Positions 39,659 to 53,075 of a DNA stretch of 64,000 nucleotides are shown here, piece after piece. A program made the position numbers and the translations under genes. Below the pieces are notes generated by a model. It made no database searches and was not told the DNA's origin. It was given only the letters and a program-made list of their open reading frames with translations. Each line of letters opens with the position of its first letter. Position 1 is the first letter of the stretch. The stretch comes from Nitrospirota bacterium (GTDB taxonomy: Bacteria > JACPQY01). Where the stretch lies: positions 1 through 64,000 of the forward strand of contig JACPQY010000060.1 of NCBI GenBank assembly GCA_016190245.1, in the 5' to 3' direction.

Positions 39659-39873
39659 ACTGTGGACAGCCTGTGCAAAACTCGGGGTCTTCGGTGCGGG
39701 CCTCGCTCGTCGCATGTGGGCTGTTGCTAGGTTGCCTATTTCTTGGGCATTTCGTGACACGTCGCGTCACGAGAAGTCCTGCGAGACGGAGTGCGGCCTG
39801 AAGTTCTCTCCGGGCACTTGACGAAGCGACGAAAAAGCGGAAGAGTGACCTACGTGACGCCGGGGGACTTGGC
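39659..39873. promoter_or_regulatory. intergenic region with a 21-bp interrupted palindrome
   Basis: The 215-nt gap before the cyclic-nucleotide-binding gene contains a perfect inverted repeat TCGTGAC-N7-GTCACGA (39752-39772), operator-like in shape. A TTGACG occurs near 39819 but without a good -10. A short open frame here (39655-39801) has a hydrophobic stretch but no good ribosome site and was not called. Confidence 0.4.
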
Positions 39874-40341
39874 ATGACGCGCGACCAGTTCTACCAGGGG
39901 CATCCGGTCTTCCGGAAACTCGCGCTGGAGATGCGCACCGAGTTGATGGAACTGGCTCAGGATCGCTTCTTCGAGGGGAAGAGAACGATCCTGGAGGAGG
40001 GCGAGCTGAGCGGGGGGATCTATTTCATCCGCACCGGTCGTGTGGGCGTGGTGAAGCGGAGCGGGGCGCCCAATTCCGAGACGATCGCGTACCTCAGCGA
40101 CGGGGAGCTTTTCGGCGAGATGTCCTTCCTGGACGGTCAGCCAGCCATCGCCGGGATCGTGGCCACGGAAGCTACCCATTGTGAGTTTCTTCCCGAGGAG
40201 TCGCTCAAGGTATTCCTCGAACGGCACGCAAGTTTCGCCTTCTACCTCATTTTCCACATTGCCCGCTCCCTCTGCACCCGCCTGCGGGAGACGGACGAGC
40301 GGCTGGTTCGTTTCATCGGCCTGATGCGGGACCGGGCATAG
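39874..40341 (+). CDS. cyclic nucleotide-binding (Crp-type) domain protein, no HTH
   Basis: A 155-aa protein made almost only of a cNMP-binding beta-roll: GKRTILEEGELSGGIYFI, RVGVVKRSG and the phosphate-binding cassette LFGEMSFLDGQPAIAGIVA. A C helix follows (residues ~120-150). The usual DNA-binding helix-turn-helix of Crp/Fnr is missing, so it probably senses a nucleotide and acts by protein contact. It lies just upstream of the filament genes and could modulate motility, but that is inference. Confidence 0.8.
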   Translation: MTRDQFYQGHPVFRKLALEMRTELMELAQDRFFEGKRTILEEGELSGGIYFIRTGRVGVVKRSGAPNSETIAYLSDGELFGEMSFLDGQPAIAGIVATEATHCEFLPEESLKVFLERHASFAFYLIFHIARSLCTRLRETDERLVRFIGLMRDRA

Positions 40342-40385
40342 CGCCCCGTCTTCCCCACCGATCTGGCGCCCGTTCGGGAGCGGGC

Positions 40386-40412
40386 TAAAGTTCTTGGCGA
40401 ACTGACCGATCA
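40386..40412 (+). promoter_or_regulatory. sigma-28 promoter of flagellin 1
   Basis: -35 TAAA (40386-40389), spacer 15 nt beginning GTT, -10 ACCGATCA (40405-40412), against the FliA consensus TAAA-N15-GCCGATAA. A second CCGAT follows exactly 9 nt after the first (40415). The flagellin start codon is 90 nt downstream. Confidence 0.85.
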
Positions 40413-40502
40413 ATCCGATAACGGGTAGCGCCGGCCGGACTCCGGCGCGAGCCGTGAGCCTCCGAAAGGAATCGGAGGTTGGCGCTTACAAGGAGGTAAG
40501 CT

Positions 40503-41411
40503 TTGGCGATCCGCCTGAACACGAATCTGGCGGCGCTCGATGCACTGTTCTACCTGAACCGGCATACAGAGCGCGCCCAGAACTCCATCGAGCATCTCTC
40601 GTCGGGTCTGCGCGTCATGCACGCGGCGGACGACCCAGGCGCGATCAGCCTTACCGTCCGACTGAAAGTCGAAGCTCTGGGGTTCGAGCAATCGGCCCGC
40701 AATGCGAACGAGGGGGCCACGTTCATCCAGATGGCCGACTCCGCCACGGCGGAGATCGCGGACGTCCTGGGCGCCATCCGGGGCCACGCCCTGCAGGCCG
40801 CGAACGGGACGATGGACTCAGCGGCGCGCGCCGGGTTGAGCGTGACGTTCACCAATCTGAAAAGCGAGATCCAGCGCATCATCAACACGACGAAGTACGG
40901 CGACATCTTCATGCTCAAGACAACGAACAGCGCTGGCGGCACGGGGAGCACGGGGACGGTGGCCACCAACCTCACACTGCCGGGCGTCACCTTCGCCCTC
41001 GGCCCGAGCGCGGACCAACTCCGGCCCTTCGTCTTCTCGATCGGCGTTTCCTCCGTGGAAGCCTCGCTGCGCGGCGCCACAACCGGCCCCAACTCCGAGG
41101 TCCTCCAGTACGGAACGATGACCTCCGTCTCCGCCGCCAAGAGCGTGCTCACGGCGGTGGACAGCGCGATTCGATCGATCTCGTTCTTCCGGGGGGCCCT
41201 CGGAGGAGCCCAATCAGGGCTCTTACAGGCGGCGGAGGCGGACGAGACCACCGCTCTCAACGTGACCGCGGCGTTGAGTGGCGTCCAGGACCTGGATTTC
41301 GCAGCGGAGGTGGCCAACTTTACTCAGGCTTCGATACTCCAGCAGGCCGCCATGGCGTTCCTCGCGCAGGCGAACCTGCTCAACCAGACCGTTCTCACAC
41401 TTCTAGGATAG
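40503..41411 (+). CDS. flagellin 1 (divergent paralog)
   Basis: A 302-aa flagellin. The N-terminal D0/D1 domain begins MAIRLNTNLAALDALFYLNR with SSGLRVMHAADDPGA. The C-terminal D0/D1 ends AMAFLAQANLLNQTVLTLLG. Between them lies only a short middle (about 110-200), so there are no D2/D3 surface domains. Start TTG 40503 has an AAGGAGG ribosome site. It is more diverged than the other two flagellins (46539, 47945), e.g. DPGAISL for the DVAALAL of the others. It is exported by the flagellar type III system and polymerises into the filament. Confidence 0.95.
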   Translation: MAIRLNTNLAALDALFYLNRHTERAQNSIEHLSSGLRVMHAADDPGAISLTVRLKVEALGFEQSARNANEGATFIQMADSATAEIADVLGAIRGHALQAANGTMDSAARAGLSVTFTNLKSEIQRIINTTKYGDIFMLKTTNSAGGTGSTGTVATNLTLPGVTFALGPSADQLRPFVFSIGVSSVEASLRGATTGPNSEVLQYGTMTSVSAAKSVLTAVDSAIRSISFFRGALGGAQSGLLQAAEADETTALNVTAALSGVQDLDFAAEVANFTQASILQQAAMAFLAQANLLNQTVLTLLG

Positions 41412-41640
41412 GCGGGGTAAGAGCGGCAGGGAACGAATGGGCGACCTCACAACGGCATCAATGATTTCTGAAATGTGGGATAACCACCCCCCCCGTGGGG
41501 GTGACAGGGGCGAGTCCATGGACGGCTCGCCCGCATCAATGTGCCCCCTGCCATGGAGGGCACGGGGCCATGCAACGTCGCCGCGCCCGCGATGGCGCGG
41601 CGGATACCATGGCCTTAGGTCAACATAAGGAGGTGACACC
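41412..41640. repeat. hairpin-rich leader before the mini-flagellin, with repeat copy B1
   Basis: The 229-nt gap has a CACCCCC/GGGGGTG hairpin near 41488-41506 and a GCGAG/CTCGC hairpin near 41510-41530. Repeat B1 (41541-41614) has a conserved hairpin (TGCCATGGAGGGCA core closed by GCCCC/GGGGC), then CATG, a second stem CGCCGCGCC/GGCGCGGCG, and CCATGGCC. A near copy of the first half is at 61071-61140. No sigma-28 promoter was found here, so the mini-flagellin is probably read from the flagellin 1 promoter. Confidence 0.6.
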
Positions 41641-42024
41641 ATGGGCACTCGCATCAGCAACGATAGCAGCAGCCTGCCGGTTCGCGCCGGCTTCGATCCG
41701 GCCCTCGCGACACTCCAACGAGCCCTCACGAGGCTGACCTCGGAGATGAGAGCCGCAGAGACGGACCCCGACGATCAGGACGAAGGGCCGGTAACCCGCA
41801 TCGGACTGGGGACGCTCGGAGAGCTTCGTCGAGCCCTCGGGAGCGCCGGCGAAAACGAGTCCGGCGAGGCCAACCGCTCGGCGGCGGAGGCAGACATCCT
41901 CGACGTGGATCGTGCCGGCGCCACGGCCGCCCGCATCCAGCGTTCGATCCTGGCCGACGCCGGAATGGCGTTCGTCAGCCAGGCCAATCTTCCTTCTGAC
42001 AGTATCCTGACGGTGCTCGGCTAG
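41641..42024 (+). CDS. mini-flagellin: small protein with flagellin C-terminal helix region only
   Basis: A 127-aa protein with a near-perfect ribosome site AAGGAGGTGA (41627-41636). It starts MGTRI exactly like flagellins 2 and 3, then diverges into a Glu/Asp/Arg-rich middle. From about residue 80 it matches their C-terminus: LDVD.A, SILADAGMAFVSQAN, then SILTVLG at the very end. Alignment with flagellin 3 over the last 41 residues is gap-free. The N-terminal D0/D1 partner helix is missing. It may be a FliS ligand, filament junction or capping part, or a decaying copy; the strong ribosome site argues for function. Confidence 0.75.
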   Translation: MGTRISNDSSSLPVRAGFDPALATLQRALTRLTSEMRAAETDPDDQDEGPVTRIGLGTLGELRRALGSAGENESGEANRSAAEADILDVDRAGATAARIQRSILADAGMAFVSQANLPSDSILTVLG

Positions 42025-42036
42025 CACCGTTGACTT

Positions 42037-42089
42037 GGGATACCCCCACCCCGCGTCATGCGGGGTGGGGGATCCAGGCACAGAAGATC
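42037..42089. repeat. 53-bp hairpin repeat, copy A1 (left of glycosyltransferase)
   Basis: Contains the perfect stem CCCCCACCCCGC / GCGGGGTGGGGG with GTCAT loop, flanked by GGAT and ATCC. A copy differing at one base lies at 43693-43745 in the same orientation, so the two copies bracket the glycosyltransferase gene. No T-tract follows, so it is a repeat rather than a simple terminator. Confidence 0.85.
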
Positions 42090-42186
42090 ACAGCGACCGT
42101 GGGAGGGGGCGCCGCACGTTTCCGCGGCGAGCGGGGACGGCGAATCTTCGCCCTCCGGCGGGGGGGGGGCGGAACTGCTGGATGGC

Positions 42187-42213
42187 TAAACCCCCGGTGT
42201 ATGCAGCCGAATG
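42187..42213 (+). promoter_or_regulatory. sigma-28 promoter of the glycosyltransferase gene
   Basis: -35 TAAA (42187-42190), 15-nt spacer, -10 GCCGAATG (42206-42213), the first five bases of the FliA -10 consensus being exact. The start codon at 42231 is 18 nt further, leaving a leader of about 11 nt. Confidence 0.75.
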
Positions 42214-42230
42214 CCTATGAGGGCAGGTCT

Positions 42231-43625
42231 ATGCCGAAGCGGACGCTCTTGTGGACCATGTGGCCTGACGAGCTCTCGGCCGAGCTGGGGCACTACTTCG
42301 ACGTCGTCTACCTCCAAGATGTCCCCCGGATGGCGGCCGTCGGCCCGAACTTCCGAGTAGACCAGAGGCTAAGGGCCATTCAGAAGGGGCGGGACCATCC
42401 CATCGAGATGCTCTTTCTCAATGCCTGGACGCGGACGGACTCGCTTCTCGGGATGGAACTCCTGCCGGTGCCGGCCGTGGTGTATCTCCACGACACGAAC
42501 TACGACTTGGATTCCTGCGATTGGGACCTTGCGCAGGGATTCGCCTGGGTTCTCGTGGAGAACGCGATATCCGTCGAATACCATGTCGGCCGGCGCGCTC
42601 CCTACGCCGTGACTTGGTGTCCGCTCTACTTCAAGTGGCCGGCCCGGGAGGCGCTCCGATGTCGGCCCGGCAATCCGAGGCGGCTGGATGTCGCCTTCGT
42701 GGGTAATCTCAGCGTGGAGTTGCACCCGGGTCGAGCGGATTTCCTGAGGGCGGTCGAGCGCCGGATCGCCGGGAGATGGAAGGTCTCCTTCGGTCCCGGG
42801 AAGGTTCTTGAAACCTACGCCGACGCCAAGATCGTTCTGAACGAATCGTGGTCCCCGAAAGGTGGAGCTTCAGCCGCTCCCTATGGAATCAACTTCCGTG
42901 TCTTCGAGGCCATGGGGTGTGGAGCCCTGCTTCTGACCGACTCGCCCACGGGGGATATGTCCACCCTGTTCCATGAAGGCGTCCACTACGTCGGGTTTGA
43001 GCGAGGGAACGTGGACCAAGTGGTGGACCTGGTCGGCCACTATCTAGATCGCGAGGTCGAGAGGCTCTCGATCGCCCAGGCGGGCTGGGAGGAAGTGGTC
43101 CGCTCCCACACCGTTGAGGCTCGCGCACAGGTGCTCGCGCCCCTCTTGACGACGATCGCGGAGAATGGGCGCGGCCTTGCGACGGCCGATCCCACGCGCG
43201 CTGCGTTTCACCTGGGCCGCTACATTCTCAGGAGTCTTCTCGTCTGGCGGCTCCAGTCGCCTTGCGCTCGGCACCCCCAGTACGTCGAACGCTTGGCGGA
43301 GGCTGAGCGACTGCTTGGGAGTGTTCTCAGTTCGCCGGATTGGGGACCGGCGGCGCGGGCGTTGCTGCCTGTGATCCGGTTCGTCATGGGAGATCCCCAA
43401 GGTGCGGTGACCGATTGGCTGGGGCTGCTGGATCAGGCCTCGACAGCAGCCTTCTCGGCCCCTTTCCTCACGGCGCTGAGCGCCAGACCGGATTCGCCAT
43501 TCCGGGGGGGTATCCTCCCCAGACTCCAAGAGGTCACCCTTGCGCCACTCCCGAGTGAGGAGGACAAGGTCATGGCGGAGATGGCGTTTCGGGCATGCTA
43601 CGCCCGAGGCCCGCAACCTTCCTGA
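42231..43625 (+). CDS. CgeB-like glycosyltransferase, probable flagellin glycosyltransferase
   Basis: A 464-aa cytoplasmic protein. The N-terminal half has a GT-B-type layout (TLLWTMWPDELSAELG, VVYLHDTNYD). The second domain (residues ~190-310) carries the glycosyl-transfer motif NFRVFEAMGCGALLLTD and a HYVGF..GN..QVVDLV region, typical of the CgeB/Glyco_trans_1_2 family. Residues 320-464 are helical and unassigned. It has its own sigma-28 promoter and lies among flagellin genes, so modification of flagellin with sugar is the likely role. The acceptor and sugar are unknown. Two copies of a 53-bp repeat flank it. Confidence 0.8.
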   Translation: MPKRTLLWTMWPDELSAELGHYFDVVYLQDVPRMAAVGPNFRVDQRLRAIQKGRDHPIEMLFLNAWTRTDSLLGMELLPVPAVVYLHDTNYDLDSCDWDLAQGFAWVLVENAISVEYHVGRRAPYAVTWCPLYFKWPAREALRCRPGNPRRLDVAFVGNLSVELHPGRADFLRAVERRIAGRWKVSFGPGKVLETYADAKIVLNESWSPKGGASAAPYGINFRVFEAMGCGALLLTDSPTGDMSTLFHEGVHYVGFERGNVDQVVDLVGHYLDREVERLSIAQAGWEEVVRSHTVEARAQVLAPLLTTIAENGRGLATADPTRAAFHLGRYILRSLLVWRLQSPCARHPQYVERLAEAERLLGSVLSSPDWGPAARALLPVIRFVMGDPQGAVTDWLGLLDQASTAAFSAPFLTALSARPDSPFRGGILPRLQEVTLAPLPSEEDKVMAEMAFRACYARGPQPS

Positions 43626-43692
43626 AGAAAGGGGGGAACCCGGCCGATCGCCCGCGCCTCCGAGCGCTGGGGTGGGAGGCAAACGCGGAAGA

Positions 43693-43745
43693 GGGATACC
43701 CCCACCCCGCGTCATGCGGGGTGGGGGATCCAGGCACAGAGGATC
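43693..43745. repeat. 53-bp hairpin repeat, copy A2 (right of glycosyltransferase)
   Basis: 52 of 53 bases match copy A1 at 42037-42089, same orientation. It lies between the convergent ends of the glycosyltransferase gene and the FliD paralog and may serve as a transcription barrier there. Confidence 0.85.
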
Positions 43746-43802
43746 GGTGATTCTATCTTGGCGCGTGCCGCGCGGCAGGAGAGGACTCCCGGTCGAGGTT
43801 CT

Positions 43803-46238
43803 TCATACCAGGATGTCCGTGGCGAGGTCTCCCTTGGTCCGAAGGGCGAGGATCCGCGCGGTTTCCTCCCGTAGCTGCCGTTGAACCTCGGAAAGCTGGG
43901 TCTCCTCGTTCTTGATCAGGCTCAGGTGGAGGTCGATAGAGCCGGTCTCCGAACGGATCATCCGGGTAAGCAGTTCGTAGAGGCGCTCGGCCACGCCGCC
44001 GCCGTCCTCCGGGATGAAGAGGTCCTGGACCATTTTGGGTTGTCGCTCGGCCGCGCTGAGGAAGGCGCCTTCGTCCAGCTCCAGCATGTCGTTGGTGAGA
44101 GCGGAGATCCCCACCTGGCTGAGCCTCTGGAAGATGGACCGCTCCCCCTTGGGGACAGGCGGCCCGCCCTGCGGGTCCCCGGCGCGGAGGCGCCGAAGGA
44201 GCGTGAAGAGGGCCGTTTCCACGAAGGTGAACTTCTCCGGCGAGGCGTTCGTGATGCCGATCTCAGACAGCTCGTCGCGGTCCTCCGAGAGGACTCCCAC
44301 GGGGAACTCCACGCCGCGCACCAGATCGGTCCGGATGGCCTGCATCGTGGCGTCTCGCTCGAGGACGCGACGCCCGGCGAGGAGGTCGTTCACTTCGAGC
44401 ATCGTGGCGTTGTAGGTGTCCACGAAGGTACGCATTCGCTCGAGGAGCGCTTCCGCGGCGATATCCACCCCGACGGTCTCCGTGTCGTAGATCAGTTTGT
44501 TTTTGTCCGTTGGCAGAATGACGCCGGCCAGGATGAGGTTCCGAACCACGTCGTCGATGCTCTCGCCGGTGATGAGGCGTGACTTCTGCGTGAGGCTGTT
44601 CTCGCCGCGGCTGTAGATCCGGCCGTCCAGCGGGTTCTTCACGAAACGCGATGTGCCATCCAGCAGGAGGTCGAGGCCGGTTGTGAATTCCCCGATGGAC
44701 GTTTCGTACTCCGAGCGGCGTGTGAGAGGCGAGACGACGATGGAAGGTTGCTCGTCCTGCAGCGGGTTCTTGAACGTAAAGCTGTTGTAGGTGATGCCCG
44801 GTTCGTCGGCTTGGACGGCCTGGTAGGTGTCCCTGTACGTCAGCCCGAGCTGATCGATGATGTTGGCCTCTCCGGAACCGGACGTGTTCTCGAGGGCGAT
44901 CCGGCGGCCGGGATCGAGGCTCTCCAGGCGGAGCCGGCCGGACACGATGGAGGCGCGCACGCCGATCCGATCCGAATTGGTGGTGACGATCCCGTCGCGG
45001 TTGGCCGCGCTTTCGAGCTTGTCCGCATCCGCCACGTAGTCGGTGCGGAATTCGTTCGGGTCCACGATACGGTCTTCCGAAACGCGGATGTAGGCCACGG
45101 CTTTGCCGGAAGAGGCATCCACGGTGATGGGGCCGTCGATGATGCCGTTTTTGTTGAGGTCCTCGAGGCCGAAGTTGATCTGGTCTGCGATCCCCTGGAG
45201 GCTCCACATCCGAGCCCCCACGGCGCGCCGTTCGCCCTGGGTGAAGTCCGTCGGCGACACGCCATAGGGTGCGCCGGGGCCGCCCACCGTATCGCGATCT
45301 TCCATCAGCCCCCGTGTATCCACGAGGATCTTGAACCCGTTGATCCTGAAGCTGCCGACGAGGTCCCCCCCCCCAAGGCTCGTCAGGCGCGCGTCCGGGC
45401 TCGAGAACGTGTCGGACTCGACCACATGGGCCCGTGTAACCTGCTGGACGGCCACGTTGAAGGATTCTGTGTCGGCCTCGTTGGTAGCGGAGGCGTTCAC
45501 AATCGAGGAGTCGCTCGTCGTGCCCGATTTCACGATGAAGCTCGCGGCGTCGAGGAGGGGAACCACCTGGCTGCGTAGCCCCTCGAGGAGTGACTTCAAG
45601 GCCTTGAAGGATTCGGCCCGGAGGTCGAGGACACGGGGGTCGGTCTCGAGGTTGTCCTGGATGGGATTCGTGTTCTGTACCCGGGAGAGTTCTTGGAGAA
45701 CGTCCTGCACTCGGAGGGCGGAGGTGATCCCGCTGTTGAGGATGACCGCGGGGACGCGCCGGCGCACAAACAGGAAGGAGGTCGTGGCAATGTCGCTCAT
45801 CCCGCGCAGATCGATGAAATGGACGGTCTGCGTGGAAACGGCCTCTGCCGGCGAGGTTTCGAAGCCTTCGGACGCGGCCTGCGGTGTGAAGGTCGCCTCC
45901 GTGGTAGCGCCGGCCACGGCAGGGCGCCCGTCAATGATGGAGTAGGCGAATCGGATGTTCTGGGAGAGGCGCGCGCCGGTAAATCGCGCGCGGGTGATGT
46001 TCTGACTGAGATGCTTGAGCTCGTCGGCCGTGACGGCGATGGGGTGGAACTGGTAAGGGACCACGACGGGAACCCCGTCTGCGTTGTAGAAGAAGACATC
46101 TACCTCGGCGCTTTCGGGGAGGATTGGGACCGCGTCCTCCGCGGGAGGCTCCTTCCTGGGCGGTGTGGTGGTTCGGTCCGCGGGCCTTGGGGCGCCCGAG
46201 ATTGGAGCCGTTTGTGAAGGCAAGTTCACAGGTTGCAT
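43803..46238 (-). CDS. FliD paralog (hook-associated protein 2-like) with N-terminal extension
   Basis: An 811-aa protein, against 450-650 for usual FliD. Residues 1-200 are an extension I cannot assign. From about 205 the FliD N-terminal pattern appears: SFKALKSLLEGLRSQV, DAASFIVKSGTTSDSSIV, ATNEADTESFNVAVQQVTRA. A hook-type insert follows (VRASIVSGRLRLESLD). FliD C-terminal features are FVDTYNATMLEVNDLL, LSEIGIT, MLELDEGAFLSAAE and a coiled-coil end. A loop DLNKNGIIDG (near 45132-45161) looks like a Ca-binding loop. It is transcribed divergently from flagellin 2 with its own sigma-28 promoter and an almost leaderless start. Confidence 0.8.
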   Translation of the reverse strand: MQPVNLPSQTAPISGAPRPADRTTTPPRKEPPAEDAVPILPESAEVDVFFYNADGVPVVVPYQFHPIAVTADELKHLSQNITRARFTGARLSQNIRFAYSIIDGRPAVAGATTEATFTPQAASEGFETSPAEAVSTQTVHFIDLRGMSDIATTSFLFVRRRVPAVILNSGITSALRVQDVLQELSRVQNTNPIQDNLETDPRVLDLRAESFKALKSLLEGLRSQVVPLLDAASFIVKSGTTSDSSIVNASATNEADTESFNVAVQQVTRAHVVESDTFSSPDARLTSLGGGDLVGSFRINGFKILVDTRGLMEDRDTVGGPGAPYGVSPTDFTQGERRAVGARMWSLQGIADQINFGLEDLNKNGIIDGPITVDASSGKAVAYIRVSEDRIVDPNEFRTDYVADADKLESAANRDGIVTTNSDRIGVRASIVSGRLRLESLDPGRRIALENTSGSGEANIIDQLGLTYRDTYQAVQADEPGITYNSFTFKNPLQDEQPSIVVSPLTRRSEYETSIGEFTTGLDLLLDGTSRFVKNPLDGRIYSRGENSLTQKSRLITGESIDDVVRNLILAGVILPTDKNKLIYDTETVGVDIAAEALLERMRTFVDTYNATMLEVNDLLAGRRVLERDATMQAIRTDLVRGVEFPVGVLSEDRDELSEIGITNASPEKFTFVETALFTLLRRLRAGDPQGGPPVPKGERSIFQRLSQVGISALTNDMLELDEGAFLSAAERQPKMVQDLFIPEDGGGVAERLYELLTRMIRSETGSIDLHLSLIKNEETQLSEVQRQLREETARILALRTKGDLATDILV

Positions 46239-46253
46239 GAGGTTACGTATTCG

Positions 46254-46280
46254 TCTTCGGCAATCTGAGAGGGAACTTTA
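46254..46280 (-). promoter_or_regulatory. sigma-28 promoter of the 811-aa FliD paralog (minus strand)
   Basis: Read on the minus strand: TAAA (46280-46277), 15-nt spacer beginning GTT, then GCCGAAGA (46261-46254). The start codon at 46238 is only about 16 nt from the -10, so the mRNA leader is very short and has no Shine-Dalgarno sequence. Confidence 0.78.
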
Positions 46281-46318
46281 GGTTATCTTGAAGAAGATGC
46301 TCAAGTTATTGAAATAAT

Positions 46319-46345
46319 TCAAGTTTTTTATAGGATTTCCGATAG
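46319..46345 (+). promoter_or_regulatory. sigma-28 promoter of flagellin 2
   Basis: -35 TCAA (46319-46322), 15-nt AT-rich spacer beginning GTTTT, -10 TCCGATAG (46338-46345). A second CCGA word starts 9 nt after the first (46348). It faces away from the minus-strand promoter at 46254-46280, so the 300-nt region 46239-46538 is a divergent late-flagellar control region. Confidence 0.82.
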
Positions 46346-46538
46346 TACCGAGAGAGGATCTGTTTTGGGTTGACCGCGGGACGGCGGCCGACTTGAGCAC
46401 CGACCGAGGGATACGGTCAGAAGGAGGTGACCAAGTCACGGACCCCACGTGTGGGGCCCTTGGCAGCGCTGCGCAACCGAGCCAGATCGCACGCCGGAAG
46501 CCCCGGGGCTTCCGGTGAAAAACCAAGGAGGCTACACC
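46346..46538 (+). promoter_or_regulatory. structured 5' leader of flagellin 2
   Basis: About 190 nt of leader with two stable palindromes: CCCCAC-GT-GTGGGG (46443-46456) and a perfect 22-bp palindrome 46494-46515 whose arms are CCGGAAGCCCC and GGGGCTTCCGG. The second ends 10 nt before the AAGGAGG ribosome site (46525-46531). Such hairpins can stabilise a highly expressed flagellin mRNA or control its translation. Confidence 0.5.
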
Positions 46539-47447
46539 ATGGGCACAAGGATCAACACCAACGTTGGTGGACTGCTCGCCACGTTGAACCTGAACAAGAA
46601 CTTCTCGTCGGCTCAGCTCTCGATCGAGCGGCTCTCATCGGGCCTCCGGATCGTGCGGCCGGCCGACGACGTGGCGGCGCTGGCGCTGTCCACCACCTTC
46701 CGCGCCGATGTCGCGGGATTCACCCAGTCCGCCCGCAACGCCGCGGACGGGGTCAACCTCATCCAAACGGCGGACTCGGCGGCGTCCACCATCGTTGACA
46801 CCCTCAACAATATTCGCTCGCTGGCGCTCCAGGCCACGAACGGCACGGTCGATTCGGCCGCCCGGCTGAGTATCGGCGCCGAGTTCACCCAGCTCAAGAG
46901 CGAGGTCCAGCGAGTCATCAGCACTACGAAGTACGGCGAGATTTCTCTTCTGGCGACCACGAACTCAGCGGGGGGGAGCGGCTCCGCCGGCAAGCTCGCC
47001 GCGGACGTGACCCTCGCCGGGCTCAAGTTCGCCCTGGGCCCCGCGGCGGAGACCCTGATGCCGTTTGTCTTCTCCAACGGCGTCTCCTCCGTGGAGGCCT
47101 CGCTGCGGGGCGGGACGACCGCCGGCAGCTCCGAGGTTCTCCAGTTCGGAACGATGACGTCCGTCTCCGCGGCCAAGAGCGTGATCACGGCCGTGGATAG
47201 CGCGATCCGTTCGATGTCGATGTTCCGCGGCGCCCTGGGCGGCGCGCAGGCCACGCTGGCGACCGCGCAGAGCACGGACGAGACGACGAGCGCCAACCTG
47301 CAGGCCACCCTCTCGCAGATTCAGGATGTGGACTTCGCGACTGAAGTGGCGAACTTCACGAGCAAGTCGATCCTGGTTCAGGCGAGCATGGCATTCCTGG
47401 CGCAGTCCAACCTGCTCCAGCAGAGCGTTCTTACGCTTCTCGGTTAG
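46539..47447 (+). CDS. flagellin 2
   Basis: A 302-aa flagellin starting MGTRINTNVGGLLATLNLNK, with SSGLRIVRPADDVAALAL and the C-terminal AMAFLAQ-type helix ending QQSVLTLLG. The middle is short (no D2/D3). It is nearly identical to flagellin 3 through both termini and much of the middle, so one is a recent duplicate or they are kept alike by gene conversion. ATG 46539 follows AAGGAGG; longer in-frame starts lie in the leader. An intrinsic terminator follows at 47473. Confidence 0.97.
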   Translation: MGTRINTNVGGLLATLNLNKNFSSAQLSIERLSSGLRIVRPADDVAALALSTTFRADVAGFTQSARNAADGVNLIQTADSAASTIVDTLNNIRSLALQATNGTVDSAARLSIGAEFTQLKSEVQRVISTTKYGEISLLATTNSAGGSGSAGKLAADVTLAGLKFALGPAAETLMPFVFSNGVSSVEASLRGGTTAGSSEVLQFGTMTSVSAAKSVITAVDSAIRSMSMFRGALGGAQATLATAQSTDETTSANLQATLSQIQDVDFATEVANFTSKSILVQASMAFLAQSNLLQQSVLTLLG

Positions 47448-47472
47448 ACCCGACCCACGTCGGGAGCCCCTC

Positions 47473-47510
47473 GGCCCCCCGCCACTGGAGTGGTGGGGGG
47501 CCTTTCTTTT
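47473..47510 (+). terminator. intrinsic terminator of flagellin 2
   Basis: A long GC-rich stem, GGCCCCCCGCCACT pairing with AGTGGTGGGGGGCC (one mismatch), is followed by TTTCTTTT. It starts 25 nt after the stop codon. This is the clearest rho-independent terminator in the window. Confidence 0.9.
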
Positions 47511-47560
47511 AGGCGAGTGGGAGATTATCTTGAGGGTGTCATCTAACTTATCGATTTCAC

Positions 47561-47587
47561 TAAAGTTTTAATGGATTCTCCCGATGT
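47561..47587 (+). promoter_or_regulatory. sigma-28 promoter of flagellin 3
   Basis: -35 TAAA (47561-47564), 15-nt spacer beginning GTTTT, -10 CCCGATGT (47580-47587). A second CCGAT starts 9 nt after the first (47590), within TCCGATAA. The flagellin start is about 360 nt downstream. Confidence 0.8.
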
Positions 47588-47599
47588 GTCCGATAAGGG

Positions 47600-47746
47600 A
47601 TGCTTATCAATCTGGAAGCGGTCACTCCTGGGGCAAACCGCGTGTTGTTGGATGCCCTGTTGCTGGTCACGGTCTTGGCCGGCGCAGCCGCCGCCTTCGG
47701 CTCGCTCATGCTCCTGGGGATGCGCTCCGGAACGGAGGGGAGGTGA
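47600..47746 (+). CDS. possible 48-aa membrane peptide in the flagellin 3 leader
   Basis: An open frame from ATG 47600 to TGA 47744-47746. Its third codon positions are strongly G/C, as in the real genes here. The product begins MLINLEAVTPGANRV and continues into one hydrophobic span (LLDALLLVTVLAGAAAAFG), ending in a short basic tail. The ATG lies about 6 nt after the predicted transcription start, so it would be leaderless, and no ribosome site is seen. It may be a real small protein, a leader peptide or chance. Confidence 0.35.
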   Translation: MLINLEAVTPGANRVLLDALLLVTVLAGAAAAFGSLMLLGMRSGTEGR

Positions 47747-47944
47747 AGGACCACTACTGAGGGCAGGTCAGCCCGAGGAGGGCTTGCCCCTCCCGGTGCC
47801 TGGGGAAATCCCGGGTACCACCCCAAAACGTAGAGACGAACGCTGATTCATGGCGGGCCAGGGAACCCGCGCCAGCGTTCAAGGAAGAACCGCCGGTCGT
47901 CCGTCGGCCACGGGAGGCCGGAGGTAAACCAAGGAGGAAACACC
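47747..47944 (+). promoter_or_regulatory. structured leader immediately upstream of flagellin 3
   Basis: Contains an inverted repeat GAACGCTG (47838-47845) / CAGCGTTC (47873-47880) enclosing a second stem GCGGG/CCCGC, then a GC-rich region and the AAGGAGG ribosome site. The arrangement (folded element, then Shine-Dalgarno) parallels the flagellin 2 leader but with different sequence. Confidence 0.45.
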
Positions 47945-48853
47945 ATGGGCACAAGGATCAACACCAACGTTGGCGCACTCATGGCCACGTTGAATCTGAA
48001 CAAGAACTTCTCGTCGGCTCAGCTCTCCATTGAGCGGCTCTCATCGGGCCTGCGGATCGTTCGGCCGGCCGACGACGTGGCGGCGCTGGCGCTTTCGACC
48101 AGCTTCCGCGCAGACGTGGCGGGCTTCGCTCAGTCCGCGCGCAACGCCGCGGATGCCGCCACGCTCATCCAGACCGCCGACTCGGCGGCGTCCACCATCG
48201 TGGACACGCTCAACACCATCCGCTCGCTGGCTCTCCAGGCCACGAACGGCACGGTGGACTCGGCTGCCCGCCTGAGTATCGGCACGGAGTTCACGCAACT
48301 CAAGAGCGAGGTCCAGCGCGTCATCACCACCACGAAGTACGGCGAGATTACCCTTCTCGCCACGACGAACTCCGCGGGCGGGACCGGCTCCGCCGGGAGG
48401 CTCGCCACGAACGTTACCCTCGCCGGGCTCAAGTTCGCCCTGGGCCCAGGAGCCGAGGTGCTCATGCCGTTCACGTTCGCCAATGGCGTTTCCTCCGTGG
48501 AGGCATCGTTGCGCGGCGGGACGACCGCCGGCAGCTCCGAGGTTCTCCAGTTCGGGACCATGACGTCCGTTTCCGCGGCCAAGAGCGTGATCACGGCCGT
48601 GGACAGCGCCATCCGCTCGATGTCGATGTTCCGGGGCGCCCTGGGCGGTACGCAAGCAACGGTGTTGACTGCCCAGAGCACGGACGAGACGACGACCGCC
48701 AACCTGCAGGCGACGCTCTCGCTGATTCAGGATGTGGACTTCGCGACTGAAGTCTCCAACTTCACGAGCAAGTCCATCCTGACGCAGGCAGGCATGGCGT
48801 TCTTGGCGCAGGCCAACGTGCTGCAGCAGACGGTTCTCACGCTTCTCGGATAG
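47945..48853 (+). CDS. flagellin 3
   Basis: A 302-aa flagellin, paralog of flagellin 2 with the same start MGTRINTNVGALMATLNLNK. It has the same short middle and the end AGMAFLAQANVLQQTVLTLLG in two conserved blocks. Differences from flagellin 2 are scattered single residues. ATG 47945 follows AAGGAGG. It is followed by a stable hairpin at 48871. FliD and FliS genes are next, giving a filament-assembly block. Confidence 0.97.
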   Translation: MGTRINTNVGALMATLNLNKNFSSAQLSIERLSSGLRIVRPADDVAALALSTSFRADVAGFAQSARNAADAATLIQTADSAASTIVDTLNTIRSLALQATNGTVDSAARLSIGTEFTQLKSEVQRVITTTKYGEITLLATTNSAGGTGSAGRLATNVTLAGLKFALGPGAEVLMPFTFANGVSSVEASLRGGTTAGSSEVLQFGTMTSVSAAKSVITAVDSAIRSMSMFRGALGGTQATVLTAQSTDETTTANLQATLSLIQDVDFATEVSNFTSKSILTQAGMAFLAQANVLQQTVLTLLG

Positions 48854-48870
48854 TCCTCTCCCCTCACTTC

Positions 48871-48906
48871 GCCGCGCCGGGCAGGCCAACAGCCGCCCGG
48901 CGCGGC
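48871..48906 (+). terminator. strong hairpin after flagellin 3
   Basis: A 12-bp stem GCCGCGCCGGGC / GCCCGGCGCGGC with a 12-nt loop begins 18 nt after the stop codon. No T-tract follows. It probably protects the mRNA 3' end or causes partial termination. Confidence 0.5.
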
Positions 48907-49022
48907 CCCGTACCCGCCTGTCCGCCACGGGCGGACGGCGCGGGCAGGTGCAGCCCCGAATCCCATTCGGGGCCATGCACGGGGCGCGGCCCTCTCGGTC
49001 GCACCCAACCTCGAACCCGTTC
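48907..49022. repeat. hairpin-rich intergenic segment, relative of repeat B
   Basis: Includes GTCCGCC-ACG-GGCGGAC and a 9-bp stem GCCCCGAAT/ATTCGGGGC (48953-48973) followed by CATGCACGGGGC. The GGGGCCATGCA word is shared with repeat B1 (41541-41614), but the stem sequence is different. It lies just before the fliD promoter. Confidence 0.45.
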
Positions 49023-49049
49023 TTAAGTTCCGCGCAGAACTACCGATAC
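49023..49049 (+). promoter_or_regulatory. sigma-28 promoter of fliD
   Basis: -35 TTAA (49023-49026), 15-nt spacer beginning GTT, -10 ACCGATAC (49042-49049). The fliD start codon lies 172 nt downstream; no convincing gene is seen in that leader. Confidence 0.78.
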
Positions 49050-49221
49050 CGCTAAGAGAGTCGCACTCATGTCCATGGAGGGACACCATGAATGGAAGCA
49101 AGCGGGATCGGGCAGTCGCCCGGAAAACCCCGCCTAGAGAACTCGTTAGAGAGAGCAGGGTCAGCCACCCGAGATTCGGGAGTCGGGATCTCCGGGGCGA
49201 GGCCCGGCGCCAGGGGGAATC

Positions 49222-51045
49222 ATGAGCGGTCGTATCACCGTCACGGGGCTGGTCTCGGGGATAGATTTCGAATCCATCATCACTCAACTCATGCAGATTG
49301 AGCGTGACACGCGCATCACGCCTATCGAGGAGTCCATTGCGGAGAACGATGCAAAGATCTCCGCCCTCGAGCAATACAACTCCCTTATCAGCTCGGTCCG
49401 CTCGGCGGCAGGAAAACTCAACACCATCTCAGGTTCGCGCCCGAAGACCGGCACCAGCAGCGACACGAACAAGATCCGTGTCACCTCGGTGGGCACGAAC
49501 GCGATCCAGGGCGCATACTCGGTGACCCAGGCCCGCAAGCTCGCGCAGGGTGAAATGCTGGCTTCCAAGTCTGGGGCAAGCGGGTCGGACATCACTCAAG
49601 AGGTCCACACCTTCGCCATCCGCTCGAACGGGCTCACGCGGACGGTCTCCACCGTGGATTTCACGAACATCGCCGAGGCCAGTCAGCTCACTCAACTCGC
49701 CACGGACATCAACCAGGATGCCGGTGACATCGTGACTGCCTATGTGGTGAACGACGGCCTCGGCGACGCTCGCCTCGTAGTCCAGTCCAAAGTCACCGGC
49801 TCAACCTTGGATGGCGGCGACACGGCCGGCAAGGGCAATCTGGGTGATGTGTCGTTCTCCATCAACGCGGGCACCTCACTCGTGATGATGCAGAACCTCG
49901 GCCTGGTCACCGGCGCGTACGCCGGCGGCGCGCTCACCACGGACGCCCAGGAAGCGAACGTCATCCAGGACAACTACGACCTGTCCATCTCGGTCGGCTC
50001 CGTCAGCTTCCAGTTCGATTCCAACACCGTCAGCACCCTCATCCCGGGCGTTTCCCTCGAATTCCTGAGCACGTTCAACAGCGGCACCGTCACGGTGACG
50101 GTCAACAACGACACGGCCACGCTCCAGTCCAACATTCAGGCCCTCGTGGACGCCTACAATGCCATGGCGACGTTCTACTCGCAGCAGGTCGCGTTCGACG
50201 AAGACACCGAGACCGCAGGGATTCTCCAGTCGGACACGGCCGTGCGGACCATGAAGGACGTCGTGGCCAACGCGCTCGGGCTGGACGTAGTCAGCCAGCC
50301 CGTCAACTACCGCTCGGTCGCGGACATCGGGATCAAGTTCCTAAGGGACGGGCAGCTTGACTTCGACACCTCGAAACTCGCCACGGCCATGGCCTCCAGC
50401 TTCAACGACGTGGGCGAGTTGTTCCGGGGATTCAAGTTCACAAGCGACAATTTCGATCCGAACGCCGCTGGTCTCTCCCTCGGCGATGTCACAGGGATGA
50501 GTTTCAAGATCAACGGAATCTCCCTCGGCGTCGGAGGAGTGGTTTCGGGAGCCACGAACAGGGACCAGCTCAACTCCCTCCGGGATCTCATCAACGAAGA
50601 CGGGCGCGGGATCCTCCAGGCCAAGGTCGTGGACCAGCCTGACGGTTCGATCCGGCTTGTCCTGTACGGCGACAGCATTCTGTTCGATGAGAACGTCATG
50701 AGCCTCAGCGCGGGCGGCTCCTCCGTGGCGGTAGGGTTTGTCTCGACTCTGAACGCCTCCACCACGCCCAAGAATCCCTCGTCGGCGGTCGGCTCCGCGA
50801 TGGAAGACATGCTCAAGGATCTCATAGACGGCACGGGTACAGCCGGCGGCATCATCCAGTCGGAGCTTGACGAGCTGGATGCGATCAACCAGCGCAACGA
50901 GGAGCGGATCGAGGAGCAGGAGGAGATCATCGACAACATCGAGGCGCGGCTCCGTGCGAAGTTCACGGCGTTGGAGGCGTCTTTGGCCCAGATGCAGTCG
51001 CAAGGGGACTTCATCTCGAGCATCCTTGGCTCCAGCGGCGGATAA
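49222..51045 (+). CDS. fliD: flagellar hook-associated protein 2 (filament cap) FliD
   Basis: A 607-aa protein. The canonical FliD start is present (RITVTGLVSGIDFESIITQLM), then a coiled region (IEESIAENDAKISALEQYNS) and YSVTQARKLAQGEML. The C-terminal region has ALVDAYNAMATFYSQQ, ADIGIKFLRDGQLDFDTSKL and a long coiled-coil end (ERIEEQEEIIDNIEARLRAK). It forms the cap under which flagellin folds. ATG 49222 follows CAGGGGG. Its partner FliS is encoded next. Confidence 0.93.
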   Translation: MSGRITVTGLVSGIDFESIITQLMQIERDTRITPIEESIAENDAKISALEQYNSLISSVRSAAGKLNTISGSRPKTGTSSDTNKIRVTSVGTNAIQGAYSVTQARKLAQGEMLASKSGASGSDITQEVHTFAIRSNGLTRTVSTVDFTNIAEASQLTQLATDINQDAGDIVTAYVVNDGLGDARLVVQSKVTGSTLDGGDTAGKGNLGDVSFSINAGTSLVMMQNLGLVTGAYAGGALTTDAQEANVIQDNYDLSISVGSVSFQFDSNTVSTLIPGVSLEFLSTFNSGTVTVTVNNDTATLQSNIQALVDAYNAMATFYSQQVAFDEDTETAGILQSDTAVRTMKDVVANALGLDVVSQPVNYRSVADIGIKFLRDGQLDFDTSKLATAMASSFNDVGELFRGFKFTSDNFDPNAAGLSLGDVTGMSFKINGISLGVGGVVSGATNRDQLNSLRDLINEDGRGILQAKVVDQPDGSIRLVLYGDSILFDENVMSLSAGGSSVAVGFVSTLNASTTPKNPSSAVGSAMEDMLKDLIDGTGTAGGIIQSELDELDAINQRNEERIEEQEEIIDNIEARLRAKFTALEASLAQMQSQGDFISSILGSSGG

Positions 51046-51121
51046 GGCGCTCCCTGAGACGCACGATGACGGCCTCGCACGTAAGATTCAGCAAAATCGC
51101 CATGTTGCCCCGGGACGGGCT

Positions 51122-51148
51122 TCAAGTGGTTTGGATTCCGGCCGATGA
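51122..51148 (+). promoter_or_regulatory. sigma-28 promoter of fliS
   Basis: -35 TCAA (51122-51125), 15-nt spacer beginning GTGG, -10 GCCGATGA (51141-51148). It lies in the 163-nt gap between fliD and fliS, so fliS can be transcribed independently. Confidence 0.75.
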
Positions 51149-51208
51149 TATGGTAAGTATGGAAAGGGTGGCAGTTGAAGAGCACGTGATGTTGAGGGAG
51201 GTGCGCTG

Positions 51209-51601
51209 ATGCCCTTCGATCCCCTCCAGGCATATCGCCAAGCGTCGATCAACACCGCGCAGCAGGGCCAGCTCATTCTGATGATGTACGAGGGCGCGAT
51301 GAACCACCTCAAGATGGCCAAGGAGAAGATGGTTCAGAAAGACATCGCGGAAAAAGGCAAGCACCTCACCAAGGTGATCAGCATCATCTCGGCACTCAAC
51401 ATGGCCCTCAACGAGGAGGCTGGCGGGGAGATCGCCAAGAACCTGCGCTCCCTCTATTTCTTCATGACCCGCCACCTCACCGAGGCCAATATCCAGAATT
51501 CGCCCAAGCATCTCGACGACGTCCTCAAGGTCCTCAACACGCTCTACGACGGCTGGCGCACGATCATCGTCGAGAGGCGTCACGAGCTGCCCGCGAGCTG
51601 A
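51209..51601 (+). CDS. fliS: flagellin export chaperone FliS
   Basis: A 130-aa four-helix protein. AYRQASINTAQQGQLILMMYEGAMNHL is the family's N-terminal signature in pieces. Then come KVISIISALNMALNEEAGGEIAKNL, LYFFMTRHLTEANI and KVLNTLYDGWRTI. FliS binds the disordered C-terminus of flagellin and stops premature polymerisation. The mini-flagellin at 41641 keeps just that C-terminal segment. ATG 51209 follows GAGGGAGG. Confidence 0.95.
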   Translation: MPFDPLQAYRQASINTAQQGQLILMMYEGAMNHLKMAKEKMVQKDIAEKGKHLTKVISIISALNMALNEEAGGEIAKNLRSLYFFMTRHLTEANIQNSPKHLDDVLKVLNTLYDGWRTIIVERRHELPAS

Positions 51602-51669
51602 TCGCTCGCTGCCGCGCCGAGACCCGGCGGCCGCGGCCTGCCTCCCGGGCCGTCTCTCCCCGCGCGAAA

Positions 51670-51689
51670 GCGAGGGTGCAATCCCTCGC
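51670..51689 (+). terminator. hairpin after fliS
   Basis: GCGAGGG-TGCAAT-CCCTCGC, extendable by CCCCGCGCG / CGCGCGGGG arms outside it. It lies 69 nt after the fliS stop, just upstream of the sigma-54 activator gene. No U-run follows. Confidence 0.45.
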
Positions 51690-51710
51690 GCGGGGGGCTA
51701 GAATCCGAGC

Positions 51711-53075
51711 ATGTCTGCCAGGGTCCTGCTGGCCATTGCCGACGACGAGAGCCGCGAGCGCGTGAAGGCCTCGCTCCAGGGCGAGGACATTGAAACGGAA
51801 GATGCGACGTCATGGCCTTCCCTCGTCCAGCGCACCGGCGACTTTGCGCTCTACGTGCTGGATTCCGAGCTGCCGGGCGCCGCTTTTCCGGACACGATCC
51901 GGGAGTTGCAGAGCATTGACACCGAGGGCGGCGTCATCATCGTGCTCGGCCCCGACGACACCGAGAAAGCCGTCGAGGCCATGCGGCAGGGGGCCGAGGA
52001 CTACCTGGCCGTGCCTTTCCGGAGCGAGTCTGAGGTGGCCTTGCGCCTCAAGCGCGGATTGCTTCAGAGCCGGATGCGCAAGGAACTCGAGAATCTGAAG
52101 GAATCGCTTCACAAGCGTTTTCAGCTCGACGGGATGCTGGGCAAGTCGAAGGCCATGCAGGAGATCTTCCGCGGCGTGATGAAGATCGCCCCCACCGAGG
52201 CCACCGTTCTCATCACGGGCGAGAGCGGAACCGGTAAGGAGCTGTTTGCGCGAACCGTGCATTTCAACAGCCTGAGGGCGGACCGGAAGTTCGTGGCCGT
52301 GGATTGCGGTGCCCTCACGGAGACCCTCCTCACCAGCGAGTTGTTCGGCCATGAACGGGGTGCGTTTACCGGCGCCATCCGTGCGCGCAAGGGATTGTTC
52401 GAGGAGGCCCAGGGAGGCACGATTTTTCTCGACGAGATCGGGAACACGTCGGTCGGGTTCCAGGTCAAGATGCTGCGCGTGCTCGAAGAGAAACGGATCC
52501 AGCGCGTCGGCAGCACCACGACCATCCCCGTGGACGTGCGTGTCATCGCGGCCACGAATCGAAACATTGAGCAGGCCGTGACGGCCGGGTCGTTCCGCGA
52601 GGATCTCTACTACCGCCTCAATGTCTTCGAACTTCACCTGCCGCCCCTTCGGGAACGGCCCGAGGACGTGCCGCTCCTGGCCTCCCACTTTCTGAAGCTC
52701 TTCTCGGACAAGATGAACAAGAACATAGGGCGCTTCACGGAGTCGGCCCTGAAGAGGATCCTCGACTACCCTTGGCCGGGCAATGTCCGCGAACTGGAGA
52801 ATGCGATCGAACGGGCGGTGGTCCTCTGCGAGAAGGACGAGATCGAGGAGACGCTGCTCCCCCTGGTCGTCCAGGGAGGGCTCTCGCCGGCCGGCGTGCT
52901 CGAGATGTTCAGCCAGCCCTGGCACACCGCCCACGAGAGGTTCGACACGGAGTACCTGCGCCGCGTGCTGGACCAATGCGGGTGGAACATTACGAGGGCG
53001 GCGGACGCGGCCCATATTCCCAGGCAGACGATCCACTACAAAATCAGGAAGTATGGCCTTAGGTCGAGTTCCTGA
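51711..53075 (+). CDS. sigma-54-dependent response regulator (NtrC/FlrC family)
   Basis: A 454-aa protein with three domains. A receiver (residues 1-115) has Asp11/Asp12 and the likely phospho-acceptor Asp51 (VLDSELPG). The AAA+ domain carries Walker A GESGTGKE, the sigma-54 contact loop GAFTGAI, Walker B GGTIFLDEIG and DLYYRLNVFELHLPPLRER. A C-terminal Fis-type HTH has NITRAADAAHIPRQTIHYKI. Such proteins control middle flagellar genes (FleR/FlrC). The position after fliS supports that role. No cognate kinase gene is in the window. Confidence 0.88.
   Translation: MSARVLLAIADDESRERVKASLQGEDIETEDATSWPSLVQRTGDFALYVLDSELPGAAFPDTIRELQSIDTEGGVIIVLGPDDTEKAVEAMRQGAEDYLAVPFRSESEVALRLKRGLLQSRMRKELENLKESLHKRFQLDGMLGKSKAMQEIFRGVMKIAPTEATVLITGESGTGKELFARTVHFNSLRADRKFVAVDCGALTETLLTSELFGHERGAFTGAIRARKGLFEEAQGGTIFLDEIGNTSVGFQVKMLRVLEEKRIQRVGSTTTIPVDVRVIAATNRNIEQAVTAGSFREDLYYRLNVFELHLPPLRERPEDVPLLASHFLKLFSDKMNKNIGRFTESALKRILDYPWPGNVRELENAIERAVVLCEKDEIEETLLPLVVQGGLSPAGVLEMFSQPWHTAHERFDTEYLRRVLDQCGWNITRAADAAHIPRQTIHYKIRKYGLRSSS

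Follow-up and report, generated by a model that had tools for sequence, protein, structure and literature searches.

The stretch analysed here, 64,000 nt of a Nitrospirota bacterium (contig JACPQY010000060.1; hereafter the window), carries a cluster of flagellar filament genes before which a first-pass annotation had placed seven sigma-28 promoters, and six of these sites have the character of sigma-28 (FliA) promoters by every sequence test applied. On the plus strand, TAAAGTTC-N11-ACCGATCA (40386..40412) precedes flagellin 1 (40503..41411; 302 aa, TTG start). A divergent pair follows, with TAAAGTTC-N11-GCCGAAGA on the minus strand (46254..46280), 15 nt from its -10 octamer to the ATG of a FliD-like protein (43803..46238, minus; 811 aa, Pfam FliD_N at 173-271 and FliD_C at 570-791), and TCAAGTTT-N11-TCCGATAG on the plus strand (46319..46345) before flagellin 3 (46539..47447; 302 aa). 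Further along the plus strand, TAAAGTTT-N11-CCCGATGT (47561..47587) precedes a small open reading frame (ORF) and flagellin 4 (47945..48853; 302 aa, 90% identical to flagellin 3), TTAAGTTC-N11-ACCGATAC (49023..49049) precedes FliD (49222..51045; 607 aa, Pfam FliD_N and FliD_C), and TCAAGTGG-N11-GCCGATGA (51122..51148) precedes fliS (51209..51601; NCBIfam fliS, 108 bits against a cut-off of 53.75). Flagellins 1 and 3 match Pfam Flagellin_N/C, and flagellin 4 is likewise recognised by Pfam.

Sites were scored without a matrix, against the published Escherichia coli sigma-28 consensus (TAAAGTTT-n11-GCCGATAA; PMC2859248) rather than against one another, which avoids circularity. With the N11 spacer, exactly six positions on the two strands of the window match at least 12 of the 16 consensus bases, and these are the six promoters listed above, the sites of FliD and fliS at 12/16 and the other four at 13/16. 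Dinucleotide shuffles within 500-bp blocks, which preserve local composition (n = 200), gave a mean of 0.8 matches at this threshold with a maximum of 3, and six were reached in none of them; at 13/16 or better the shuffled expectation was 0.08. Spacers of N8-N10 and N12-N14 returned between 0 and 3 matches at 12 or more across the window and none at 13 or more. All six sites thereby combine two octamers 11 nt apart, a frequency above chance and a position before flagellar genes.

The -35 elements are of the T(A/C/T)AAGT type and the -10 elements of the CCGA type. As the first-pass annotation had stated, the leading tetramer is separated from the -10 octamer by 15 nt beginning with GT at all six sites; this feature is not special, however, because it consists of the second half of the -35 octamer (GTTT) followed by the canonical N11. 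The tetramer itself, given as TAAA, holds for three of the six, the others reading TCAA or TTAA. The dyad AGTTC-N5-GAACT, considered as a regulator site, occurs in the 40386 and 49023 sites and is absent from those of the relative introduced below; we take it to be a chance occurrence.

Conservation was assessed against a single genome of the same family (G001), all other genomes available being related at the domain level only. The relative retains the cluster, with its cyclic nucleotide monophosphate (cNMP)-binding protein, flagellins, opposite-strand FliD-like protein, FliD, FliS, sigma-54 regulator and trigger factor, and has a site within 500 nt upstream of all six orthologs, five with N11 and one with N12. 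The N11 sites score 13/16 for flagellins 1 (C3:244096), 3 and 4 (C3:234896), 14/16 for FliD (C3:233435) and 12/16 for FliS (C3:231453); at the rate given by the shuffles, the Poisson chance of finding five N11 sites in these upstream regions is about 2e-11. The divergent pair before flagellin 3 and the FliD-like gene is preserved (C3:239118/239157), and the -10 element again stands 15 nt from the FliD-like ATG. The lineage does not keep the spacer length without exception, since the FliD-like promoter of the relative scores 14/16 with N12. Among 23 sites from the two genomes TNAAGTT and CCGAT hardly vary, while the spacers show no evident similarity. In neither genome does a site above 11/16 precede the glycosyltransferase, the flagellin-2 position, the cNMP gene or the sigma-54 regulator. 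The same N11 motif stands at some distant flagellin loci, at one of them (L035) with 16/16, in keeping with a promoter type of wide occurrence.

These data bear on the suggestion that the sites arose by coincidence in AT-richer intergenic DNA and that the genes use sigma-70 or sigma-54 promoters. One sigma-70-like match does overlap the flagellin 3 site, and the genome has sigma-54 as well as a sigma-54 activator; yet the region holds about as many sigma-70-like matches as chance would give (2 found, 1.4 expected), and none of the 15 genome matches to the sigma-54 pattern TGGCAC-N5-TTGC lies on the contig of the window. With 0.8 matches expected after composition-preserving shuffling and six orthologous positions conserved, we regard coincidence as exceedingly unlikely. 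At most flagellin-cluster sites of both genomes, and rarely elsewhere, the -10 core is followed after 6 to 9 nt by a second CGA-type element; in the window it falls around the expected start point (40405-40420 and 47581-47596), and it also occurs at sites of the relative in L080.

The seventh proposed site (42187..42213, plus; TAAACCCC-N11-GCCGAATG) was assigned to a glycosyltransferase (42231..43625, plus; Pfam Glyco_trans_1_2, 82 bits). TAAA-N15-GCCGA is indeed present there, at a plausible distance before the ATG. Its score, however, is 9/16, which is reached at 361 positions of the window, and no counterpart was found upstream of the glycosyltransferase of the relative; we therefore rejected it as a sigma-28 promoter. 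The glycosyltransferase lies on the same strand as flagellin 1, downstream of it, and may be transcribed by read-through from that gene.

The presence of a cognate sigma factor and its antagonist elsewhere in the genome, which had been predicted from the sites, was borne out. FliA is encoded about 113 kb from the sites on the same contig (G000:C56:164183-164860), scores 257 bits against a curated cut-off of 189.6 and contains Sigma70_r2, r3 and r4. Its gene lies in an flhA-flhF-fliA cluster, preceded by ORFs that read as the flagellar export set fliM, fliN, fliR, flhB, flhA and flhF. FlgM (C5:19355) scores 67.6 bits against a cut-off of 25, with 66-68 bits over searches, and its gene is the first of four ORFs reading as flgM-flgN-flgK-flgL; the names given above to the neighbours of fliA come from reading translations and not from profile searches. 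The family concerned, TIGR02479, includes WhiG-type factors, and the sites might in principle be recognised by a different group-3 sigma factor, of the WhiG or SigB kind, instead of FliA. Against this, the single match above the cut-off sits in the flagellar export cluster, the relative likewise has a single one, FlgM is present, and among solved structures the protein matches E. coli FliA (6pmi, E 2.3e-55) far better than WhiG, so that such a factor seems most improbable.

Coverage beyond the window consisted of pattern searches of the genome together with limited stretches. The strict pattern TNAAGTT-N13-CCGATA, with one mismatch allowed, occurs 13 times in the genome, and its reversed control 7 times. 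Seven of these 13 matches stand before flagellar genes: four in the window, and one each before a flagellin on C10, a flagellin at the edge of C30 and an FlgE-like gene on C4. A DUF5610 gene on C78 follows another. Two further sites fall outside this pattern, those of flgM (C5:19178, 12/16) and of csrA-fliW on C30 (14/16). The csrA-fliW site, TAAAGGTT-N11-GCCGAT, occurs in both genomes (L127 1079-1105, G000:C30 about 11857; L096, G001:C3:151051, minus), and counterparts in the relative also exist for the sites of flgM, the C10 flagellin, the FlgE-like gene and the DUF5610 gene. No N11 site of at least 12/16 was found before motAB-like ORFs or fliA in the stretches read. Because further conserved sites precede genes outside the window, the window holds a part of the late class and not the complete filament regulon that had been claimed; these genes comprise flgM-flgN-flgK-flgL, the C10 flagellin, csrA-fliW and the FlgE-like and DUF5610 genes, and the C30 flagellin has a site as well. 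The conserved outlying sites count, along with the score and conservation of the 42187 site, against a reading in which all seven sites, one per gene, are sigma-28 promoters that together make up the whole filament regulon, and we consider that reading very unlikely.

Two of these outlying sites merit description in their own right. That of the DUF5610 gene is found in both genomes (L008, G000:C78:70722; L089, G001:C4:35437) with the same neighbour gene adjoining; in the relative, 486 nt separate it from the called start, a call that may be wrong. The FlgE-like protein (424/422 aa), a second one of its kind, stands behind a conserved sigma-28 site in both (L009, G000:C4:9966, minus; L105, G001:C11:124288, minus), and a separate FlgE-type ORF of about 1000 aa is present on C16/C9.

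Taken together, six canonical sigma-28 promoters very probably drive the late genes for flagellins 1, 3 and 4, FliD, the FliD-like protein and FliS under a FliA/FlgM switch. Several points weigh against this assignment. Firstly, it derives from sequence; the sites had been described as direct regulatory evidence for co-expression, a phrase too strong for sequence matches. Secondly, conservation of the sites rests on one comparison with one family relative. Thirdly, the -35 element of the fliS site (TCAAGTGG) is poor, the weakest of the set. Finally, a second FliA-family match (C56:148653, 116.6 bits, in a 635-aa frame) lies below the cut-off and probably represents the housekeeping sigma factor.

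What the DNA itself shows is the set of sites, the conservation of these sites and the genes for FliA, FlgM, CsrA and FliW, and a course of events can be proposed around them by analogy with known systems, which supply the use of the sites by FliA, the export of FlgM as a switch and the limitation of flagellin translation by CsrA-FliW. Early genes would build the basal body and hook. FlgM, encoded behind its own sigma-28 site, would then leave through the finished hook, its export being known to release FliA (PMC4183435), and the freed FliA would transcribe the flagellins, the caps, FliS and flgM-flgN-flgK-flgL. Control of flagellin translation by CsrA-FliW, as described in two reports (PMC4894983, PMC8523840), may operate as well, csrA-fliW being itself in the late class. 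The putative place of such control would be two long leaders, those of flagellins 3 and 4, which extend about 190 and 350 nt, respectively, beyond the -10 elements. Rfam gave no match over 39700-51900, and folding of the leader RNA (z -1.6 to -2.2) is not decisive. CsrA-type GGA motifs are in clear excess in the leader of flagellin 4 only (16 against 8.5 expected), which we do not treat as evidence of binding.

The flagellin 4 leader contains an unannotated ORF of 48 codons (47600..47746, plus; MLINLEAVTPGANRVLLDALLLVTVLAGAAAAFGSLMLLGMRSGTEGR) that starts 12 nt after the -10 octamer and has one predicted membrane span. A 69-codon homolog occupies the same place in the relative, also 12 nt after the -10 element (L080:9649-9858, minus). 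Over 43 codons the two share 62 of 129 nucleotides, and their BLOSUM62 score is 65 in the proposed frame as opposed to 6 and -13 in the others. None of 5000 random substitution sets reached 65, and 3690 of them contained a stop; the region was picked after inspection, which makes this coding test somewhat optimistic. In both products 19 residues form a hydrophobic stretch (Kyte-Doolittle 2.3 and 2.0). Pfam gave no significant match, and a model of the pair found no match in 143 other genomes. On balance we lean towards the view that the 47561 promoter also transcribes a near-leaderless 48-aa membrane peptide, which could serve either as a membrane protein of the filament phase or as a translated leader controlling flagellin 4 synthesis.

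Several other features of the window complete the picture. An ORF of 127 aa (41641..42024, plus) is a flagellin remnant of which only the C-terminal end is recognisable, residues 73-127 aligning with the flagellin C-terminus in NCBIfam. It has a ribosome-binding site, and no sigma-28 site was found upstream. As a full-length flagellin occupies this position in the relative, the ORF looks like an internally deleted flagellin. The ortholog of the FliD-like protein in the relative has 825 aa. The N-terminal extension before FliD_N, of about 170 aa (45720-46238, minus), is 51% identical between the two and has no Pfam match; beyond the relative, it gave one marginal hit in 145 genomes. An intrinsic terminator (47473..47510, plus) with a 13-bp stem and a T-rich tail follows flagellin 3. 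A small basic ORF (49063-49225, plus), behind an GGAGGGACAC ribosome-binding site, overlaps the start of FliD in both genomes with differing sequence, an arrangement that suggests translational coupling. Downstream of fliS lies a sigma-54-dependent response regulator (51711..53075, plus; Sigma54_activat, 235.6 bits), syntenic in the relative and with no sigma-28 site of at least 12/16 upstream. Sigma-54 is present in both genomes, and this regulator may control an earlier flagellar class.

The promoters resemble the FliA class 3 promoters of E. coli and Salmonella in their -35 element, N11 spacing and CCGAT core, and in the kinds of gene served (flagellin, FliD, FliS, FlgM, FlgK and FlgL). They differ in having A or C at position 2 of the -35 element and one N12 site in the relative, in the absence of a site of at least 12/16 before motAB in the stretch read, and in the sites before csrA-fliW, the FlgE-like gene and the DUF5610 gene. 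In the sigma-D regulon of Bacillus subtilis, csrA-fliW lies within the flgM-flgK-flgL operon. Here, too, csrA and fliW are adjacent, behind a sigma-28-type site and in the late flagellar class, but they form a separate unit outside flgM-flgK-flgL. FliW-CsrA flagellin homeostasis accompanies the sigma-D regulon in B. subtilis, and CsrA/FliW are treated in the two reports cited above for translational control. Campylobacter jejuni, with RpoN-dependent middle genes and FliA-dependent late genes (PMC11187230), offers a further parallel in that several flagellins, FliA, FlgM, sigma-54 and a sigma-54 response regulator are all present here.

The late-gene class described here is a standard FliA/FlgM one in a lineage with few sampled genomes, a well-known kind of system and an ordinary annotation result, to which the small membrane-peptide ORF adds one modest new item. 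Its meaning lies in the retention of the FliA/FlgM switch for late genes, including the base sequence of the promoters, in a lineage represented here by two genomes, and in the place of csrA-fliW within the late class, which links transcriptional control to the known post-transcriptional control of flagellin.

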